NCBI GenBank assembly: GCA_018335925.1
Contig: JAGXRF010000111.1
Span: 32,469 to 96,468, forward strand
DNA from: Flavobacteriales bacterium
Lineage (GTDB): Bacteria; Bacteroidota; Bacteroidia; Flavobacteriales; Flavobacteriaceae
DNA: 64,000 nt
Reading direction: 5' to 3'
Below, one piece after another: positions 19,152 through 53,955 of this stretch. The notes beneath the pieces are model-generated. The model searched no databases and was not told the DNA's origin. It was given only the letters and a program-made list of their open reading frames with translations. Both the position numbers and the translations under genes were made by a program. Position 1 is the stretch's first letter, and every line of letters starts with the position of its first letter.

Positions 19152-20462
19152 TCACTTTTCACTAATAATCCCAGCCAATTTCTTAGAAATATTTCTTCGA
19201 TGATAAGCTTCCATATTGGCATTTTCATTGGCAATGTTTTCGTTTTTTTGATACTTTTTAAACCAATACAAGATTTGATTTTTCAAGGCTTGTTTTTGAG
19301 AATAATAAAAATAGTTTCCTCCTTTGGTTTCTTCTAATATACTGTGTACATCTGAACCTTCAGGTCCTAAAGCAATGATTGGCTTTTGAGAAGATAAATA
19401 CTCAAATAATTTTCCCGGAATGATGCATTTGGTTTCCGGACTATCAATTTCAATCAACAATAGTAATTTACTTGTTGCTTGAATAGCCCTTGCCTCGTGA
19501 TGAGAAACATATCCAAAAAAGCGAATGTGGTTGTGCAATCCATATTCTTTGATTGTTTCTACAATGTCTTCACTTACTTTTCCTGCAATTTGTAACAAAA
19601 AGTTTTTTGCAAATGTTTCCTGTTCTTGAATTAATTCTTGCAATACTTCCCATAAAATAATTGGGTTCCGATTGGTGAGCCATGAACCGATGTAGGAAAT
19701 TGTAAACTGCTTATTTTCGTATTTTTTTAATTCATCGGAAGTAAACGATGCTATTTCATATCCATTGGTTAATACATGAATTGGTTGCTTGGTCTTGGCC
19801 AAAAACTCTTTCTTAGTTGTTTCACTTGTAACAATTATTTCAGAAGCTTTTTGCAGCACTTTTTCTTCTAATTGCAGATGTTTTTTTTGAGCAAATTCAC
19901 TTAAATACAATGCCTGATGGTAGCCAATAGTTGTCCAAGGGTCTCTAAAATCTGCTATCCATCTTAAGTCAGGCTTTTTCTGTTGAAACTTTAAGCCAAT
20001 TAAATGTAAACTATGTGGTGGTCCGGTGGTAATGAATGCCTCAAATTTATGTGCCTGCATTAATTTATCCACCTCTTTTAAAACAGGTGCTATCCATCCT
20101 TTTCTGGCATCCGGAATAAAAAAATTACCTCGCACCCACAAGGCTATTTTTTGCATCATGCTTTGTTTTTGAGCAGAAGGAATCATTCCAGAGCTGATAT
20201 TGGTGACCTTTTTTGAAAAAAATTTTGTTAGCCATTGGTTGGGCTCAGAAATAGGAACCGGAATTACTTTACATTCAGAAGGAACATCCTTTACTAAAGC
20301 TTCATCTAATAATGGATAAGAAGCGTTTTTAGGGACAATTATCCAAGGTTCTACACCAAATTCAGGTAAATATTTCACAAACTTAAGCCAACGTTGCACC
20401 CCAGGGCCTCCGGCTGGTGGCCAATAGTAAGCAACAATCAACACTTTTGGCTTAGCCTCCAT
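19152..20462 (-). CDS. Glycosyltransferase (GT4-like)
   Basis: KVLIVAYYWPPAGGPGVQRWLKFVKYLPEFG; ETKCIIPGKLFEYLSSQKPIIALGPEGSD. ORF track start 20507; MEAKPKVLIVAYYWPP at 20462 is the more likely start. Confidence 0.87.
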   Translation of the reverse strand: MEAKPKVLIVAYYWPPAGGPGVQRWLKFVKYLPEFGVEPWIIVPKNASYPLLDEALVKDVPSECKVIPVPISEPNQWLTKFFSKKVTNISSGMIPSAQKQSMMQKIALWVRGNFFIPDARKGWIAPVLKEVDKLMQAHKFEAFITTGPPHSLHLIGLKFQQKKPDLRWIADFRDPWTTIGYHQALYLSEFAQKKHLQLEEKVLQKASEIIVTSETTKKEFLAKTKQPIHVLTNGYEIASFTSDELKKYENKQFTISYIGSWLTNRNPIILWEVLQELIQEQETFAKNFLLQIAGKVSEDIVETIKEYGLHNHIRFFGYVSHHEARAIQATSKLLLLIEIDSPETKCIIPGKLFEYLSSQKPIIALGPEGSDVHSILEETKGGNYFYYSQKQALKNQILYWFKKYQKNENIANENANMEAYHRRNISKKLAGIISEK

Positions 20463-24234: not shown

Positions 24235-25383
24235 ATGATTCGTATTGTTCCTGTTGTAACCAAAAAAGAAATCAAAACTTTTGTTCAATTTCCTTTTCAG
24301 TTATACCAAAATCATCCTTATTGGGTGCCTCCTATTGTAAAAAATGAAATGGAGACATTTGACCCAACCAAAAACCCCGTGTATGAACACGCAGAATCTC
24401 ACTTATTTTTGGCTTACAAGGAAGATAAAATAGTTGGACGGATTGCAGCCATCATCAATTGGCAAGAAGTAAAAGAACAACAAAAAAGTAAGATCCGTTT
24501 TGGGTGGTGGGATGTGATAGACGATATAGAAGTAACCAAAAAATTAATTGAAAAAGTTATTGAAATTGGTAAAAACAACAAATTAGAACACATCGAAGGC
24601 CCTATGGGGTTTTCGAACTTAGACAAAGTAGGAGTGGTTACCGAAGGTTTTGACGAGATAGGTTCCATGATTACTTGGTACAACTACCCATATTATGCTG
24701 AACACCTAGAAAAATTAGGATTTCAAATAGAAAAGAAATACCAGGAAAGTAAATTTTCATTTTCAAATGTACAACCCGAAACCTTTGAAAAAGCTTGCAC
24801 TGTTATTGAAAAAAGATATGGTTTAAAAGCTGTTAGCTTTAAAAAAAACAAAGATATTTTGCCCAAAGTAAATGAAATGTTTGAAGTGTTTAACCAAAGC
24901 TATGCTTCATTAGCCTCATTTGTTGCAATTACAGAAAGAGAAAAGACTTATTATAAAGAAAAATACATTTCCTTTATCAATCCGGAATACATCAAATTTG
25001 TATTGAATGAAGAAGGAAAAATGGTGGCATTTAGCATCGTGATGCCTTCTTTTTCCAAAGCTTTGCAAAAAGCAAATGGAAACTTATTTCCGTTTGGATT
25101 TTACCAACTACTCAAAGCCAAAAAAGAAAGTAAAGACGTTTTGTTTTATTTGATTGGAATTTTACCTGAATTCCAAAACAAAGGAGTTACAGCACTTATT
25201 TTTAAAGAATACTACTACACATTTACCCAAAAAGGAATCAAAAACTGCATTAGAACTCCCGAACTAGAGGAAAATATTGCCATTCAAAATATATGGAAAA
25301 ATTTTAACCCTCAAGTTTTTAGAAGAAGAAGAACTTTTTCAAAAAATATAGTAGGATTAAAAGAAAATCAAATATCCAAATAA
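24235..25383 (+). CDS. GNAT-like hypothetical protein
   Basis: 382 aa; QNHPYWVPPIVKNEMETFDPTKNPVYEHAESHLFLAYKEDKIVGRIAAIINW. Confidence 0.6.
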   Translation: MIRIVPVVTKKEIKTFVQFPFQLYQNHPYWVPPIVKNEMETFDPTKNPVYEHAESHLFLAYKEDKIVGRIAAIINWQEVKEQQKSKIRFGWWDVIDDIEVTKKLIEKVIEIGKNNKLEHIEGPMGFSNLDKVGVVTEGFDEIGSMITWYNYPYYAEHLEKLGFQIEKKYQESKFSFSNVQPETFEKACTVIEKRYGLKAVSFKKNKDILPKVNEMFEVFNQSYASLASFVAITEREKTYYKEKYISFINPEYIKFVLNEEGKMVAFSIVMPSFSKALQKANGNLFPFGFYQLLKAKKESKDVLFYLIGILPEFQNKGVTALIFKEYYYTFTQKGIKNCIRTPELEENIAIQNIWKNFNPQVFRRRRTFSKNIVGLKENQISK

Positions 25384-25596
25384 GGACAAGAATACATACA
25401 GTACCAACAGTAATAGTTCCAGACGGTAAGATTTTACAAAATTTTTCATAAGCGTAATATATTTACTCAAAAGTAAAAATTTCAAAATGTATTAAAAAAT
25501 AATTTTCATGAAAATAGCTTCTGAGTTTGTGAAAGTTTATTTTCAATCAACGAAATAGCTACCTTAATCCTTTAACAAAAAAATATTTTGAATCCT

Positions 25597-27852: not shown

Positions 27853-29487
27853 TTACTTCACAATTTTTTGACTCTTTTGGTTTCCATTGCTATCAGAAAT
27901 TAGAAGCAAATAAATTCCTTTATGTAATTGATCTAAATGATCAATAATAAAATTTGGTTGGTTTGAAGTTCCATGAAGAATGCTTTTACCTGTTAAATCT
28001 ATCACTTCATAACGTATATCACCAATAAACTCCGATTTTACTAATACATGACTTGTAAACGGATTAGGAAACACATTCACATCTATACTTGCCATATCAA
28101 GGCTATGATTTGACAACGTACTGGCATTTTGGTATCTAATGGCCATAATTTCAGGTACAGTAAGTGCCCTATTAAATATATACAATTCATCAAGAACCGA
28201 TTGGGCATATTTAATTGCTGCAGGAGCACCTGAAGAACTAAGCTGAGTGCCTGTACCAATAGAAAATACGGAATTAAATCGATGAATTGATGAGTTGTCT
28301 GTTACTTGTTCTGCTGCAACAAATTCACCATCTATAAAATACAATAAAAAACGATTATTACCAGAATTCACAAACTGAATTGCCACATGATGCCATTGGT
28401 TCAAACTCTTTAAAAACAATCTTGTCAAAACATCTTCAGATGCTGAATTTCTAAAGTAGGCTAGTCTTTCAATAGGGTTTGCATCAGTGCTTAATTTTCT
28501 TTCTCTAACACCAAAACTTCCAAATGCTTCAACGAGAGCCTCACCGTTTTGACCTACCGCTGTATTTGGTATTACACTTCTTTTTTGCCAATAACAAATT
28601 GTTAAATTATTATTGTTCATAGAATTTGCCATACTGGTATTCATAAAACCTTGTCCTAAATCAAAAGAAACCCCTTGTCCACTATAACCAGTAACAAATG
28701 TTCCACCAGGAAAAGCACTTGGGAAGTTTGAAAAGGCATGCTCTCCATCAAAATCAGTCAAATTACCATCAAAAGGAAAATAAGCAACCAAGCCAGTTGT
28801 ATCAAAAATAACTTGTGAGGCGTACATATTTTGAATATCGGTTTCTGTTAAAACTGTATCAAAAATTTCTAAATCATCATAAACCACTGTTCTATTGACT
28901 GAATTTGGTGTAGATAAACTGCTACCTAATTGAAAAGTTGTACCAACTGTATTCCAGGCAGATGGTGGTAAAGCATTGATATATAAATTTCCGTTTCTAT
29001 AAACTTTGCATGTTGTACCATCATAAGTCATCACATAGTGGTACCAATTATTACCATAAGTTCTATATCTATATCTTTCTGAAACAGCAGTATTAATATC
29101 ACTAGCCCATCCAAAAGCAGTCATTTGAGCAGGTGCTTGAACCAAACCAAATGCTTGGTTAGTTGATTGTGTTCCGTATTGGAATAAAAAAATTCTGTCT
29201 GCTGCTGGAGAACCATTTCTAAAACTCATCCAAAAAGAAACAGATCTTGTAGATGTTCCAACTGGTAATAGAGGTAGGTTAACTGAAGTAGGATCCATAA
29301 AACTCATTTGCAAAGCTTGATTTGCAACCCCAAATCTGTCTGCTACAAATGAGGAGCCAGGTATGGTTGAAAAAGTGTGATTTCCTGATGCATCTGTTCT
29401 TGAATTATTAAATTCAAACTTGTAAATTGGGGTTTGAGCCCAAAAAATAGCAAAACTAAAAATACTAAAAAGTAACTTATTTTTCAT
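27853..29487 (-). CDS. LamG-like domain protein with T9SS type A sorting domain
   Basis: Two concanavalin/LamG-like modules (WHHVAIQFVNSGNNRFLLYFIDGEFV); C-terminal VNVFPNPFTSHVLVKS...LHKGIYLLLISDSNGNQKSQKIVK. Confidence 0.9.
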   Translation of the reverse strand: MKNKLLFSIFSFAIFWAQTPIYKFEFNNSRTDASGNHTFSTIPGSSFVADRFGVANQALQMSFMDPTSVNLPLLPVGTSTRSVSFWMSFRNGSPAADRIFLFQYGTQSTNQAFGLVQAPAQMTAFGWASDINTAVSERYRYRTYGNNWYHYVMTYDGTTCKVYRNGNLYINALPPSAWNTVGTTFQLGSSLSTPNSVNRTVVYDDLEIFDTVLTETDIQNMYASQVIFDTTGLVAYFPFDGNLTDFDGEHAFSNFPSAFPGGTFVTGYSGQGVSFDLGQGFMNTSMANSMNNNNLTICYWQKRSVIPNTAVGQNGEALVEAFGSFGVRERKLSTDANPIERLAYFRNSASEDVLTRLFLKSLNQWHHVAIQFVNSGNNRFLLYFIDGEFVAAEQVTDNSSIHRFNSVFSIGTGTQLSSSGAPAAIKYAQSVLDELYIFNRALTVPEIMAIRYQNASTLSNHSLDMASIDVNVFPNPFTSHVLVKSEFIGDIRYEVIDLTGKSILHGTSNQPNFIIDHLDQLHKGIYLLLISDSNGNQKSQKIVK

Positions 29488-29551
29488 GTTTTATTTTTTT
29501 AAATACAGGCACAAAACTATTATTACAACAAGTCAACGGTTTATAGAATAC

Positions 29552-29579
29552 GGTGAAACACTAATTTGAGTTTGTAAAA
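29552..29579 (-). promoter_or_regulatory. Putative operator copy B: TTTTACAAACTCAAATTAGTGTTTCACC (minus strand)
   Basis: 21/28 identical to copy A (31473-31500); TTTYAC direct repeats with 21-bp period; ends 64 nt upstream of the ATG at 29487. Confidence 0.6.
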
Positions 29580-29618
29580 AAAGAATGTTTTAGCTTCCTC
29601 CTTATTAAAAATCATTTA

Positions 29619-31409
29619 CTATAGTTTGATAATTTTTTTGGTAATCGATTTTCCAGATTCTACTTCAATTTTTACAAAATAAACTCCTGGATATAGATTT
29701 TCCATATTTATCAAGCTTTGGTTGGATTCCATAATTTTCTTACCAGTTAGATCGAAGATTTCAATGCCTTTTAAAACTTCATTTGAAACTTGAATCTTTA
29801 GGTAGGAAGTTGCAGGGTTTGGAAAAATGGAGACGTTAGTCAATGGATTAAAATCAACCGACAAGGTTTCTGTAACAGTAAGATTTTTAAAGGCAAGAGA
29901 TGTTGTAAATGTTAAGTTTTTAAATTCTAAATAATAGTTATCCGTAACCATAGGAGTAAAAACAGCAGAAAAATTACTAAAGTTATCATTTAAAGAATTG
30001 CTGCTAAAATCGAATAAGTTTTGTTCAAAACTTGAGTCGCCATCTCTTTTAACTTTAATAAATCCTAATTGAATTGGATCATTAAAAGAAACAGAAAAAA
30101 CGGTTCTTGCATCAATTTGAAATGCATACTCTTGGTTTCCTTGTAAAGCCATTTTTCGTGAGTTTAAAAAATAATTTGCACTTACAGCTGGAAGTCTAAG
30201 TTCATTGTTTGTGATAGTTGCAGCATTAAAAATTTGACTATATCCAAGGTTACAAAGCGTTAATCCATCATCAAAAGGTTCGGTAAACGGAACGCTTAAT
30301 GGAGTTGTGGTGCCAGTTGCAGTGGTAAAATTTGTAAAACGCCAAGCATCAGTAGTTGAACACGCACTTTTTACTCTTACCGTGTAATCTGTACAAGGAT
30401 TTAAATTGGAAATTTCCTGAAAAAATATGGTTGTGTTATTGGCTCCTGGATTGGATGTATTGATATTATTGATTGTTGTTCCAGTTCCTTCTGCAAAACC
30501 AATTGGTCCATATTCCAAAACGTAGTTTGACCCACTAAGTCCCGACCAATTAACAGTTGTACTACTTGAAGTAATATTTATTAACTGTGGATTGTTCAAA
30601 ATTTGAGGTCTTCTCCCTCTTAAGCTCCATGGACTGGTAGTTGTACCACAGTTTGCTCTTACATAAACATCATAACTATTACAATTAAAGTCTGGATTTG
30701 TAAAGCTATTCCCTGTTAAACCAGTTACCAATGTCCCAGTTCCTTGAATAAAATCAATTGGTCCATATTCAATATCATACGTTCCTGAAAATCCGGTAGG
30801 TGTAGTCCATGTTACTTCCGGCACAACACTTGATATGGATGGTGTTCTGCAAGAAGAAACATTTACAAAAAACAATTGAAAGGAATTTTGACCAACATTC
30901 AGACTATGTACAACAGACTTAAAGTTAAATTTTATCTTTACTTGACTGTTTCCGGTTCCAGTGTAGGATGCTAAATCTAAATTGATAGATTCCGTAAAAG
31001 AAAGATTCGTACCATAATCAATTTGTGAATCATCCCAAATAGGTGTCCACGTAACACCATTGTTAGTAGATACGCTAACAATAAATTCTGCTATATTAAA
31101 ATCAACAAAAAGATTTTTTCTGAAAATTCCTCTAAAATCTAAATAACAAACAGTAGTATTGCTTAAATCTATTGCAGGAGTTATCAATTCCTCATTTTGA
31201 GCAATGGAACTACTCTCAATAATTGCAATACTCTGATTTGGAACGGAACCGAAGCGAAAAAACGTGAAGTTGCCAGAACCAACACTATTTAGTGTCCATC
31301 CTGATGGAGGAAAAGTTGGGTCTGCAAAACTTTCTGCAATAAACAATTGGCTAAAACCTAAGTTGATACTGCAAAGCAACAACATGAACTTTGTAAATTT
31401 GATATGCAT
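29619..31409 (-). CDS. Secreted fibronectin-III-like protein with T9SS type A sorting domain
   Basis: Signal peptide MHIKFTKFMLLLCSINLGFSQ at 31409 (ORF track start 31454); Fn3-like YDIEYGPIDF/YVLEYGPIGF repeats; VSIFPNPATSYLKIQVSNE...GVYFVKIEVESGKSITKKIIKL. Confidence 0.9.
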   Translation of the reverse strand: MHIKFTKFMLLLCSINLGFSQLFIAESFADPTFPPSGWTLNSVGSGNFTFFRFGSVPNQSIAIIESSSIAQNEELITPAIDLSNTTVCYLDFRGIFRKNLFVDFNIAEFIVSVSTNNGVTWTPIWDDSQIDYGTNLSFTESINLDLASYTGTGNSQVKIKFNFKSVVHSLNVGQNSFQLFFVNVSSCRTPSISSVVPEVTWTTPTGFSGTYDIEYGPIDFIQGTGTLVTGLTGNSFTNPDFNCNSYDVYVRANCGTTTSPWSLRGRRPQILNNPQLINITSSSTTVNWSGLSGSNYVLEYGPIGFAEGTGTTINNINTSNPGANNTTIFFQEISNLNPCTDYTVRVKSACSTTDAWRFTNFTTATGTTTPLSVPFTEPFDDGLTLCNLGYSQIFNAATITNNELRLPAVSANYFLNSRKMALQGNQEYAFQIDARTVFSVSFNDPIQLGFIKVKRDGDSSFEQNLFDFSSNSLNDNFSNFSAVFTPMVTDNYYLEFKNLTFTTSLAFKNLTVTETLSVDFNPLTNVSIFPNPATSYLKIQVSNEVLKGIEIFDLTGKKIMESNQSLINMENLYPGVYFVKIEVESGKSITKKIIKL

Positions 31410-31472
31410 AAAATTGAATTTAAAATTTACACAAAAGTGAAATTTGTGAATCAATCAAATAGTTATCAATAA

Positions 31473-31500
31473 GGTGAAATGCTCGATTGGGTTTGTGAAA
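31473..31500 (-). promoter_or_regulatory. Putative operator copy A: TTTCACAAACCCAATCGAGCATTTCACC (minus strand), in divergent intergenic region
   Basis: TTTCAC-N15-TTTCAC (21-bp period); ends 63 nt upstream of ATG 31409 and ~42 nt upstream of the divergent kinase start 31542. Confidence 0.6.
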
Positions 31501-31541
31501 TAAATATGTAGTGAACATATAAGTGATAAATTTGCAATAAC

Positions 31542-34358
31542 ATGAAACCAAAATTTTTTCACCTATTTATTCTATTCGTATATTGGCAAAATTGGTATGC
31601 ACAAAACGTACATTTTGAACACATTACCTTATCTTCCGGATTGCCAAGTGAACAGATTTACGACATTTTTAAATGCTCTAGAGGTTTTATTTGGCTTGCT
31701 ACCAACGATGGTTTAATCAAATTTGATGGAACCAACTACCATGTTATTGTAAATGCATCAGAATTATCTTCCATTGGTTCCAATTTAAAGCAAGATGAAA
31801 CTGGAAAAATATGGTTACAAAACTTTGACGGCTATTTTTTATACGTTCAAAATGATAGTTTAAAACAATACAAAACCATTAAAAGTGGAGTTTTTCAACC
31901 GTATGTAATAGAAAAAGACCAACTAATTTACGGTTCCAACAACCAACTAATCATAAGAAATTTAAGAAGCGACCATCAAATAAAACACCCAAAAACATTT
32001 GATATCTTATTTTGTCATGCTTTGGGAAATTATTGGGTTATTGGAGGAAACAAAATCGAAATTATCTACAAAAAAACACTGAAGCCATACCGAAAATTCC
32101 AGTTTACTGAAAAATTTAATTCTTTAGCTACTTTTTCAAACGGAATGAATATGGTAATTGTGGATAAGTCAAAAAACGACACCCCCATAATTCTTATAAA
32201 CTCCAAAGGTGATTTGAAAAAAGGCAAAATCACATTGCAAAGTACTATTCAAAATGTGTATTTATTATCAAATGAAATTTGGTTTTTTACAAAAAATGGA
32301 ATTGAAGTTTTTAACAATAACTTTCAACCATTAAAACATAAAAACTTTCTACATGGTAAAAATGTAGCTTCATTTACAAAAGATGAAAACAACTTCCTTT
32401 GGGTGGCATCTCCAAAAAACGGAATATATTGGATTAAAAGTATGGATGCCAAAGAAACTTCATTACCTAACGATGATTTTTCAGCCATTACACACAACAA
32501 CCAATATATTTACACAGGAAGTAATCAAGGAAATATCTATCAACATCATTTAAACTTGCAAACAGATTTGGTTGAAAGTACTGAGGACAATACCCAAATT
32601 TTGTTCATGAATTTTAACCAATTTCAAAATTATCATTTGTTTACAGGCAATGGTTTTTACATAAAAAATTTAAGCAACTCTTCCGTTATAAGAAATTACT
32701 CTTCTGTTAAAGACATTTGCTTTATCCAACCAAATGCCATAGGAGTTGCAGCAACAGGATTTGCAGGTGTATTTGATATTAATCAATCTGCATTGATAAA
32801 CAACTGGTATGATTTGGCCTTTTTAAAAAATATTAGAGCTAAATCGGTTGCTTATGATGCAGTTAACCAAAAATTATACATTGCAACCAACAATGGGTTA
32901 TATGCATACCAACATCAAAAATTATTTCAAATTTTAAAAAACAAGAAAAGCATTTTTGCGAAAAATATTCAATTTGTAAACCAACAATTAATCGGAATAA
33001 ACATTCAAAATCGTGCATTTGTCATTTCAAATAAACAGTACCATACCATCCATCCAATTGCAAACTTTCAAAAGTTAAAAACATCTAACGATAAAATCTA
33101 TTTATCTACAGCTAATGCAGTTTACCAACTTTTAAATAATCGTTTAATCAAAGTAGTAGAAATTAGCAAATACGAGCCATTGATAGATTTTGAAATATTA
33201 AACGGTAAATGTTATGCCATCACCAAAAACAAATTAATTAAAGCTGCTTTAAATCAGGAATTTCCGAATGGAGAAAAACCAAAAGTGTATATCAATCAAA
33301 TAGTGGTACAAGATAAACTCCTTAAAAAATTTGAAGATATTTCATTAAATTATAACGAAAAAGATGTTACTATTTACTTTGATGCGGTAAACTTTGATTA
33401 TTTTAACGATTATGAATTACAATATACCATCAACGATCAAATTTATCCGATTAACAAGCAACAACGTGAAATAGTATTGGCTAATTTAAAACCTGATCTA
33501 TACCAAATATCTATAAGGTTTTTTGATGCAAAAAACAATTTATTTTACCCTTCAAACCAAATAATTTCTTTTAAAATAAATCCTCCTTTTTGGAAAAGAC
33601 TATACTTTATCTTACCCATGCTTTTAGCTTTAAGTTTGATAGTAATATTATTTTATCGAAAAAAACTTAAGAGCATTCAGTTAAAAAATCAATTGATGAT
33701 TGATAAATTAGAGCTAGAAAATAATTTAAAAGAATCCAAACTCCAACTTATCAAGTCGCAAATGAATCCGCATTTCTTTTTTAATGCCATCAATAACATA
33801 CAATCCTATATTGTGAGTAACGAAACCAAAGAAGCATCAAATTACTTACATAAATTATCAGACTTAACCAGAAAAATTTTAGAATTTTCAGAAGTTGAAT
33901 CTGTTAGACTTGAAGAAGAATTAGAATCGTTGATTTTGTATTTAGAACTTCAAAAAATGAGGTTTAAAGATTTGAGCTACACCATTTATTTAGAACCTGA
34001 AATAAACCCCAAACAAATCAAAATCCCAACCATGCTATTACAACCTTATGTTGAAAATGCCATATTGCATGGGCTGAGCCATAGCAATCAAGAAAAACTC
34101 CTATCCATCCATTTAAAAATAATAAACCAAGAGGTGTTAGAAATTGAAATTGCTGACAATGGCATAGGTAGAATTAAATCAGTAGAGATTAACAATAAGA
34201 GCAGCACCAAAAAAAAATCGTTTGCAACAAAAGCCAATTTAGAACGAATCATGCTTTTGAACAAAAATAAATATTGGATTGATGTTAGCTACCATGATTT
34301 ATATGATATTCATAGTGAGGCAAATGGCACCATTGTTTTGGTAAAAATTAAATTGTAA
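31542..34358 (+). CDS. LytS-type sensor histidine kinase with periplasmic two-component-regulator propeller
   Basis: N-term LPSEQIYDIFKCSRGFIWLATNDGLIKFDG propeller repeats, Y_Y_Y-like region, TM, His_kinase: LKSQMNPHFFFNAINNIQSYI; IPTMLLQPYVENAILHG. Confidence 0.93.
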   Translation: MKPKFFHLFILFVYWQNWYAQNVHFEHITLSSGLPSEQIYDIFKCSRGFIWLATNDGLIKFDGTNYHVIVNASELSSIGSNLKQDETGKIWLQNFDGYFLYVQNDSLKQYKTIKSGVFQPYVIEKDQLIYGSNNQLIIRNLRSDHQIKHPKTFDILFCHALGNYWVIGGNKIEIIYKKTLKPYRKFQFTEKFNSLATFSNGMNMVIVDKSKNDTPIILINSKGDLKKGKITLQSTIQNVYLLSNEIWFFTKNGIEVFNNNFQPLKHKNFLHGKNVASFTKDENNFLWVASPKNGIYWIKSMDAKETSLPNDDFSAITHNNQYIYTGSNQGNIYQHHLNLQTDLVESTEDNTQILFMNFNQFQNYHLFTGNGFYIKNLSNSSVIRNYSSVKDICFIQPNAIGVAATGFAGVFDINQSALINNWYDLAFLKNIRAKSVAYDAVNQKLYIATNNGLYAYQHQKLFQILKNKKSIFAKNIQFVNQQLIGINIQNRAFVISNKQYHTIHPIANFQKLKTSNDKIYLSTANAVYQLLNNRLIKVVEISKYEPLIDFEILNGKCYAITKNKLIKAALNQEFPNGEKPKVYINQIVVQDKLLKKFEDISLNYNEKDVTIYFDAVNFDYFNDYELQYTINDQIYPINKQQREIVLANLKPDLYQISIRFFDAKNNLFYPSNQIISFKINPPFWKRLYFILPMLLALSLIVILFYRKKLKSIQLKNQLMIDKLELENNLKESKLQLIKSQMNPHFFFNAINNIQSYIVSNETKEASNYLHKLSDLTRKILEFSEVESVRLEEELESLILYLELQKMRFKDLSYTIYLEPEINPKQIKIPTMLLQPYVENAILHGLSHSNQEKLLSIHLKIINQEVLEIEIADNGIGRIKSVEINNKSSTKKKSFATKANLERIMLLNKNKYWIDVSYHDLYDIHSEANGTIVLVKIKL

Positions 34359-34374: not shown

Positions 34375-35118
34375 ATGAAAGCAATCATTATAGAAGACGA
34401 AAAAAGAGCACAAATATATCTTGAAAATACCCTACTTGATGTAGCCCCAATGGTTGAAGTAGTAGAGATTTGTGATGATTTGCCTTCGGGTGTTGTAGCT
34501 ATTAAAAAGCACCTACCTGATTTGGTATTTTTAGATATTGAAATGCCAAAATTTAGCGGACTGGACATCGTTAAGTTTTTTAATTTAGAAGAAATCAATT
34601 TTAAAATCATTTTTACTACAGCTTACAATCAATATGCCATTGAAGGTTATCAAGTAATGGCTTTAGATTATTTGCTAAAACCAATTAATCCGGAGAAGTT
34701 AAAAATTGCTATAGATCGAGCTTGCAAAATGCAAAAAATTGATTTTGAAAAAATAAGCCAATTACAAAACACGGTAAACAATACTACTAAAATTGCATTT
34801 CCTGATGGCAATCAAGTGGTTTTGATTGACCCAAACGAAATTGTTTATTTAAAAGCTGACAATAGTTATACACAAATCAACCTAGCGTCTGGAAAAAAAA
34901 TGATAACTAGTAGATTTTTAAAAAACTTTGAAGAAAGCTTGCAATACAATTCCGACTTCTTTAGATGCCATAAATCTTATATCATCAACACCCAATATTT
35001 AGAAAGTTTTTCAAAGTCAAACGGTGGTACAGCAATTTTACAACAACAAATTGAAATTCCGGTCTCTATTGATAAAGTTGAAGAACTTTTAAGCAAATTT
35101 GTAAAAGTAAACCGATAA
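34375..35118 (+). CDS. LytTR-family response regulator
   Basis: Receiver KAIIIEDEKRAQ..LVFLDIEMPKFSGLD..FTTAYNQYAIEGYQVMALDYLLKPI; LytTR IVYLKADNSYTQINLASGKKMITSRFLKNFEESL...FFRCHKSYIINTQYL. Confidence 0.96.
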   Translation: MKAIIIEDEKRAQIYLENTLLDVAPMVEVVEICDDLPSGVVAIKKHLPDLVFLDIEMPKFSGLDIVKFFNLEEINFKIIFTTAYNQYAIEGYQVMALDYLLKPINPEKLKIAIDRACKMQKIDFEKISQLQNTVNNTTKIAFPDGNQVVLIDPNEIVYLKADNSYTQINLASGKKMITSRFLKNFEESLQYNSDFFRCHKSYIINTQYLESFSKSNGGTAILQQQIEIPVSIDKVEELLSKFVKVNR

Positions 35119-52887: not shown

Positions 52888-53955
52888 ATGTTGAAAGCAA
52901 AAATTACCTCTCTCCTATTTTTATTTGTTTCATTTGTAGTTGCTCAAATTCCTGCTTATTACAATGGCATTGATTTTACCAGTAATGGACAGGCACTAAA
53001 AAATGAATTAGCTGCCAGAATATCTGATTCACATGTAAACCAATTAACTTACTCACAAATTTGGGAAGCACTAAAAATTGTGGATTTAGATCCTAACAAC
53101 AGCAATAATGTACTATTAATTTATGGATGGGAAAACGGTTCCGATGGGGATGCTACCAACGACAGAAGTAGAAATAAAGATAATAATGGAGGAAATAATG
53201 GTCAGTGGAATAGAGAACATACCTATCCGCAATCTGTAGGAACTCCTGATTTGGGTCAAGTTGGCCCTGGAGCTGATGCCCATATGTTAAGAGCCTGTGA
53301 TGTACAAAGAAATAACTCAAGAGGAAATAGAAGATTTGCTAATGGTAGTGGTTCTAATTCCTATAGTATTGGTACAAATAGTTGGTATCCTGGTGATGAA
53401 TGGAGAGGTGACATTGCAAGAATGATGATGTACATGTATTTGAGATATGGAAATCAATGTTTACCAACCAATGTTGGTGTTGGCTCTACAGCAGGTACTG
53501 GTGACGATATGATAGATTTATTTTTAAATTGGAATGTACAAGATCCTGTGTCAACTTTTGAAATTAATAGAAATAACTATTTGGCCAACTCCAACAATAC
53601 ATGGGGACAAGGCAATCGAAACCCGTTTATTGACAATCCTTATTTGGCTACCAAAATTTGGGGAGGAGTACCAGCACAAGATACATGGGGAACATTATCT
53701 ACAGAAATTCCTGTTTTTGAATCAACCGTTTCAGTATATCCTAATCCTGTAAAAGACCAAATAGTTTATATTCAAACAGAAAACACTGTAGAAGAAATCG
53801 TTTTGATGAACATCAACGGACAATACATTCAAAAAGTAAACCATCCAACCAAAGTACAAAATACCTATAGCTTAGATGGTTTACAATCAGGATTTTATTT
53901 CTTACAAATCACTTCTAACAACCAAACGGTTACTAAAAAGATTGTGGTACAGTAA
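52888..53955 (+). CDS. Endonuclease I family secreted nuclease with T9SS type A sorting domain
   Basis: WNREHTYPQSVGTPDLGQVGPGADAHMLRACD; VSVYPNPVKDQIVYIQTEN...SGFYFLQITSNNQTVTKKIVVQ. Confidence 0.93.
   Translation: MLKAKITSLLFLFVSFVVAQIPAYYNGIDFTSNGQALKNELAARISDSHVNQLTYSQIWEALKIVDLDPNNSNNVLLIYGWENGSDGDATNDRSRNKDNNGGNNGQWNREHTYPQSVGTPDLGQVGPGADAHMLRACDVQRNNSRGNRRFANGSGSNSYSIGTNSWYPGDEWRGDIARMMMYMYLRYGNQCLPTNVGVGSTAGTGDDMIDLFLNWNVQDPVSTFEINRNNYLANSNNTWGQGNRNPFIDNPYLATKIWGGVPAQDTWGTLSTEIPVFESTVSVYPNPVKDQIVYIQTENTVEEIVLMNINGQYIQKVNHPTKVQNTYSLDGLQSGFYFLQITSNNQTVTKKIVVQ

Follow-up and report, generated by a model that had tools for sequence, protein, structure and literature searches.

Two related 28-nt sequences in the window, the whole 64,000-nucleotide stretch of flavobacterial DNA analysed here, are very probably two-site operators of the LytTR regulator encoded beside them, through which two genes for type IX secretion system (T9SS) surface proteins would be activated. 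We strongly favour this explanation of the data as a whole, with binding and activation inferred. The initial annotation had proposed a self-contained LytS/LytTR regulon acting on two T9SS genes, and conservation and promoter geometry now support that proposal; binding, the direction of regulation and the signal have not been shown. The genes and sites concerned are as follows.

31542..34358, plus strand: sensor kinase, 938 aa, with a Reg_prop beta-propeller, a His_kinase domain (LytS type) and an NPHFFFN motif
34375..35118, plus strand: response regulator, 247 aa, with a receiver domain (D54) and a LytTR DNA-binding domain
29619..31409, minus strand: target gene A, 596 aa, with fn3 and Por_Secre_tail (T9SS sorting) domains
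27853..29487, minus strand: target gene B, 544 aa, with two Laminin_G_3 domains and Por_Secre_tail
31473..31500, minus strand: operator A, upstream of the fn3/T9SS gene A, between the divergent gene A and kinase gene
29552..29579, minus strand: operator B, upstream of the LamG/T9SS gene B
31432..31439, minus strand: -7 box of gene A, CACTTTTG, one mismatch, 33 nt after operator A
29512..29519, minus strand: -7 box of gene B, TAGTTTTG, perfect, 32 nt after operator B

The kinase and regulator qualify as a LytS/LytTR two-component system (TCS), their His_kinase (PF06580), Response_reg and LytTR (PF04397) domains all scoring above the Pfam cut-offs. Genes A and B both encode the C-terminal Por_Secre_tail domain (PF18962) of T9SS substrates, again above the cut-off; secretion itself is inferred. 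A further ORF with a T9SS-like tail (52888-53955, plus strand; home-made profile, E 3e-11) does not carry this operator. The source genome also carries a second propeller-LytS/LytTR pair (C18:61832-64693; L126) that lacks both a neighbouring T9SS gene and a clear operator, and in an F. covae record (L061:5944-8796) the kinase gene is apparently split into two ORFs.

Read on the minus strand, operator A (31500-31473) is TTTCACAAACCCAATCGAGCATTTCACC and operator B (29579-29552) is TTTTACAAACTCAAATTAGTGTTTCACC. As first annotated, the two are identical at 21 of 28 positions, each holds TTTYAC half-sites 21 bp apart, and they stand 63 and 64 nt from their respective start codons, ATG 31409 and ATG 29487. 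With up to three mismatches allowed, the pattern occurred four times in the window versus 0.05 times expected from shuffles. Operators A and B are the two perfect matches, and the remaining two are at 20373 and 25534-25507; the former falls within a glycosyltransferase-like coding sequence and was dismissed as a chance match. The genome-wide scan suggested by the initial annotation returned A and B as the only perfect matches in the source genome (3.58 Mb in 132 contigs, of the same genus as many Flavobacterium genomes). There, a profile built from 12 sites scored them at 29.3 and 28.6 bits and no other site above 15.6. With a matrix trained without the window sites they were still the two top-scoring sites of the window, at 34.9 and 33.1 bits, followed by 25534 at 16.7 bits. 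Counting against the operator reading, little beyond TTTCAC is kept in the second repeat of the window operators.

The spacing of the repeats was examined in 33 non-redundant T9SS promoters adjoining related propeller-LytS/LytTR TCSs. At a period of 21, 73% of these promoters reached at least 8/10 for the best 10-nt direct repeat, versus 14% of 132 control promoters judged by the same criterion; other periods gave 0-12%, leaving 21 as the sole peak in the spectrum. A separate set of loci, fetched later for the micropeptide described below, showed the period-21 repeat in 67% of 12 T9SS promoters linked to a LytTR regulator (within 5 kb) versus 19% of 21 unlinked ones. The initial annotation was right that a promoter element follows each operator, but its TTTTGTG has to be read as the flavobacterial -7 box TAnnTTTG, which is the sigma-A -7 box, at -12 to -5, in F. 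psychrophilum (PMC9723704). In an unrestricted search, 29 of 32 promoters had their best such box 31 or 32 nt past the operator. The 21-bp period and the fixed -7 spacing are shown by these comparisons. Two features expected of a LytTR operator are present: two repeats of 9-11 nt with a gap of 11-13 nt (PMC4847170), met by the unique 21-bp period (the unit in relatives is about 12 nt, as in TTTCACAAACTC, found twice in L058), and a position just upstream of the core promoter, met by the 31-33 nt between operator end and TAnnTTTG in nearly all cases. That a LytTR protein binds is inferred from co-occurrence and clade-wise letter change alone.

The geometry also bears on the direction of regulation. 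With the -7 box at a fixed spacing, the operator would span about -72 to -44 and be centred near -58. TTTG was found at the -33 position in 3% of operator promoters versus 16% of controls, and its near-absence fits what is expected of activator-dependent promoters. It remains possible, if unlikely, that the regulator binds the operators yet represses the T9SS genes, since LytTR proteins can repress at some sites, as AgrA does at bsaA (PMC4227749). The operator, however, ends about 44 nt short of the expected start, without covering the core promoter. The -7 box keeps a rigid spacing and -33 elements are depleted, both usual marks of activation. Activation by the adjacent regulator remains our preferred reading; it is an inference, there being no binding or expression data.

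Relatives of the kinase were gathered from named genomes and from further Flavobacterium genomes. Lack of conservation in related genomes had been set as a refutation of the regulon; instead, the operator was kept at orthologous loci with fixed geometry, 62-76 nt before LamG/T9SS genes adjoining the same kinase/LytTR pair, and it recurred from Flavobacterium to Chryseobacterium. Related 28-mers were found either between the divergent genes or ahead of additional T9SS genes (L037-L041, L043-L045, L047, L058, L059), and the genes downstream mostly encode LamG/T9SS proteins (Laminin G, Por_Secre_tail). Sites above 25 bits occurred in six of 300 Flavobacterium genomes, all adjoining this TCS. Several of the genomes in which matches were later counted had contributed to the training of the profile used (R1); sites outside the training set were those in G169 and at C54 of Flavobacterium sp. 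9AF, a genome searched through its locus. In G317, G331 and G267, sites scoring 23-25 bits were discarded, as they lacked a -7 box or lay inside coding sequence. T9SS genes made up 25 of 56 neighbours of the TCS versus 3 of 108 distant ORFs (p=4e-11). An adjacent T9SS gene was absent at 9 of 32 related TCS loci, some owing to contig ends, and at other propeller-LytS loci, in Chitinophagaceae-like genomes, operators were weak or missing. At the level of sequence comparison, both the conservation of the operator and the link between LytTR systems and T9SS genes can be considered established. A second class of genes with the operator encodes proteins of about 400 aa that look secreted and match no Pfam family (L203 was not scanned).

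L038:4622-5833, L039:4385-5839, L047:4653-5804, L189:7969-9186 and L203:2400-3617: targets of the second class

A clade-wise change in the letters of the operator was also shown by comparison. The repeat unit has the scaffold TTTC-NNN-AACTC, and the variable letters differ by clade, usually in both repeats.

Type ACA: the window clade, L047, L058, L059
Type TCA: GTTCTCAAACTC
Type GTT: TTTCGTTAACTC, TTTGGTTAACTC
Type AGM: TTTCAGAAAGTC
Form in L317 and L325: TTTCATGAAA

On the kinase tree, only 3 changes explain the 4 operator types, and several genomes (G191, G096, G125) hold two types side by side. Because the operator sequence follows the TCS clade, with both repeats often changing together, the paralogous systems look insulated, and the window module would be one of a family of such circuits in Flavobacterium that each use different operator letters; paralogous systems with different letters had escaped the initial annotation. 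The LytTR residues that track operator type most closely are those at about 164-167, close to the residue that aligns with AgrA His169, a DNA contact. Since each operator type is nearly one clade, this association is only suggestive of residues 164-167 as determinants of operator type.

These data also speak to the possibility that another, global transcription factor binds the repeat and that the LytTR TCS is merely a neighbour. No binding data exclude such a factor, and the genome encodes 8-9 LytTR proteins; however, among 300 genomes the sites above 25 bits stand solely beside this TCS, the operator letters follow the TCS clade, and the 21-bp period of LytTR-linked T9SS promoters is much rarer in unlinked ones, so that we consider a global factor very improbable. 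Scarcely tenable is the idea that the likeness of the A and B promoters reflects gene duplication or chance: the genes are adjacent and share a sorting domain, but their other domains differ (fn3 in A, LamG in B), the site is kept in other genera with different flanks, and chance would give only about 0.05 such matches per window. We retain the adjacent LytTR regulator as the protein that would bind the operators.

Operator A is shared with the divergent kinase gene, which has a -7 box of its own.

31527..31534, plus strand: kinase -7 box, TAAATTTG, lying 26 nt beyond the outer end of operator A

In the ACA (window) and TCA clades the kinase -7 box keeps a distance of 26-27 nt to the outer end of the shared operator, whereas its distance to the start codon varies. 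In the GTT clade, and in most members of the AGM clade, a separate forward operator precedes the kinase gene, and its -7 box stands at +31 to +33. Autoregulation, raised earlier as a possibility, gains support from the fixed shared-operator distance and from the separate operators of two clades. The kinase gene is probably co-regulated by the TCS; for the window clade this is inferred, and the direction of regulation is not shown. In this family the start codon of the kinase gene follows the -7 box at a short distance (near-leaderless) and is frequently TTG or GTG (31542, L037-L039, L240-L254).

The match at 25534-25507 is a plausible third operator, overlooked in the initial annotation together with the 30-aa micropeptide gene that it precedes.

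25507..25534, minus strand: third, weaker operator, TTTCACAAACTCAGAAGCTATTTTCATG, 16.1-16.7 bits, with a perfect -7 box at +31
25468..25475, minus strand: -7 box of the micropeptide gene, TACTTTTG, 31 nt after the third operator
25357..25449, minus strand: micropeptide gene, 30 aa, MKNFVKSYRLELLLLVLYVFLSLFGYLIFF, ATG 25449, previously unannotated, single copy in the source genome

By score alone this site is not distinct genome-wide. Simulated windows contained 0.13 sites of its score each, and none of 60 also had the -7 box; in Flavobacterium sp. 9AF, a similar 32-aa ORF follows a site whose -7 box is likewise at +31. The micropeptide belongs to a family (Y[RKQ]LE...LY) of 28-33 aa with one helix, found at 25357-25449 (minus strand) and at L039, L040, L041, L047, L244, L250, L263 and L281-L307. 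Peptides combining Y[RKQ]LE with a hydrophobic tail were encoded at 16 places across 1.0 Mb of real loci, a few of these being double-counted, and nowhere in 0.55 Mb of shuffled sequence. Y, L, E and Y are invariant among 13 aligned members. In four pairs the nucleotide changes fell mainly at third codon positions, and in the three with computable dS, dN was 0.13-0.23 versus a dS of 0.63-1.26. Judged from these substitutions, the family is under purifying selection. Matches at E <=0.05 were obtained in 25 of 150 Flavobacterium genomes, the source genome matching once (E 6e-11); in a 247-genome sample of the class, the source genome alone matched at 0.001. Searches of Pfam, NCBIfam and the PDB gave only chance-level matches and no known family.

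The start of most strong copies of the micropeptide falls between -8 and +27 nt, counted from a T9SS stop codon; other copies follow a LytTR regulator (L308) or kelch-like genes. A TCS (LytTR or NarL-like) was nearby at about 12 of 20 larger loci, by a manual count without matched background. At L309, L323 and L312 a T9SS gene and the micropeptide lie beside NarL-like regulators (named from protein starts only); the micropeptide is thus not tied to a single regulator type. We propose, tentatively and at a little under even odds, that it is an undescribed, dedicated partner of single T9SS surface proteins and their private TCSs in Flavobacterium, made together with its cargo. It might report synthesis or secretion of the cargo back to the membrane sensor kinase, or it might help its one cargo through the envelope; we give these two inferred functions about equal weight.

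A working model can be put together from these elements. The periplasmic beta-propeller of the kinase would read an external cue, itself an inference, and the kinase would phosphorylate D54 of the regulator. Two regulator molecules could then occupy the two repeat units on one DNA face, two helical turns apart, with the operator centred near -58 from the expected transcription start. Once bound, they would replace the missing -33 element and recruit sigma-A polymerase, activating transcription of the two T9SS-secreted surface proteins and probably of the 30-aa membrane peptide at 25449-25357 too. With operator A at a fixed distance from the kinase -7 box, the TCS would probably also regulate its own synthesis.

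The system resembles E. coli YpdA/YpdB-yhjX, which also pairs a LytS-type kinase with a LytTR regulator (PMC4847170). The YpdB operator, GGCATTTCAT-N11-GGCATTTCAT (PMC4847170), likewise has two direct half-sites with a 21-bp period, its half-site contains TTTCAT, and YpdB has one dedicated target (PMC4847170). Unlike YpdA/YpdB, the window system has a propeller sensor, T9SS targets, clade-varying letters, a divergent TCS promoter and the micropeptide. S. aureus AgrA, the LytTR fold of which is related by sequence, also has at P2/P3 direct repeats with a spacing of about two helical turns and a centre near -60 (PMC4227749); in the window, however, no peptide-processing system was found, the half-site letters differ and the promoter is of the flavobacterial -7 type. 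The AgrA-type half-site consensus fits the opposite strand only and was not used as evidence. PorXY-SigP similarly links a TCS to the type IX secretion system in Bacteroidota (PMC4800418). PorXY reportedly acts on secretion-machine genes through an ECF sigma factor, whereas in the window a LytTR operator stands before individual cargo genes. The operator is a variant of known LytTR direct repeats; in open-access papers, subscription papers being outside the scope of the search, we found no description of the regulon, with its T9SS cargo cassette, or of the micropeptide.

Several consequences follow for LytTR regulators of Bacteroidota. A 21-bp repeat of a TTTC-NNN-AACTC-like unit with a -7 box 31-32 nt on is a readable operator rule, from which the targets of many orphan TCSs become predictable, and the natural operator variants make the insulation of paralogous TCSs testable. 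The micropeptides form a conserved family, below the usual annotation length, tied to T9SS cargo genes. To our knowledge, T9SS work has mostly concerned the secretion machine, and little is known of how single surface proteins are switched. The layout described here, repeated in relatives with their own versions of the switch, points to self-contained circuits that choose surface content.
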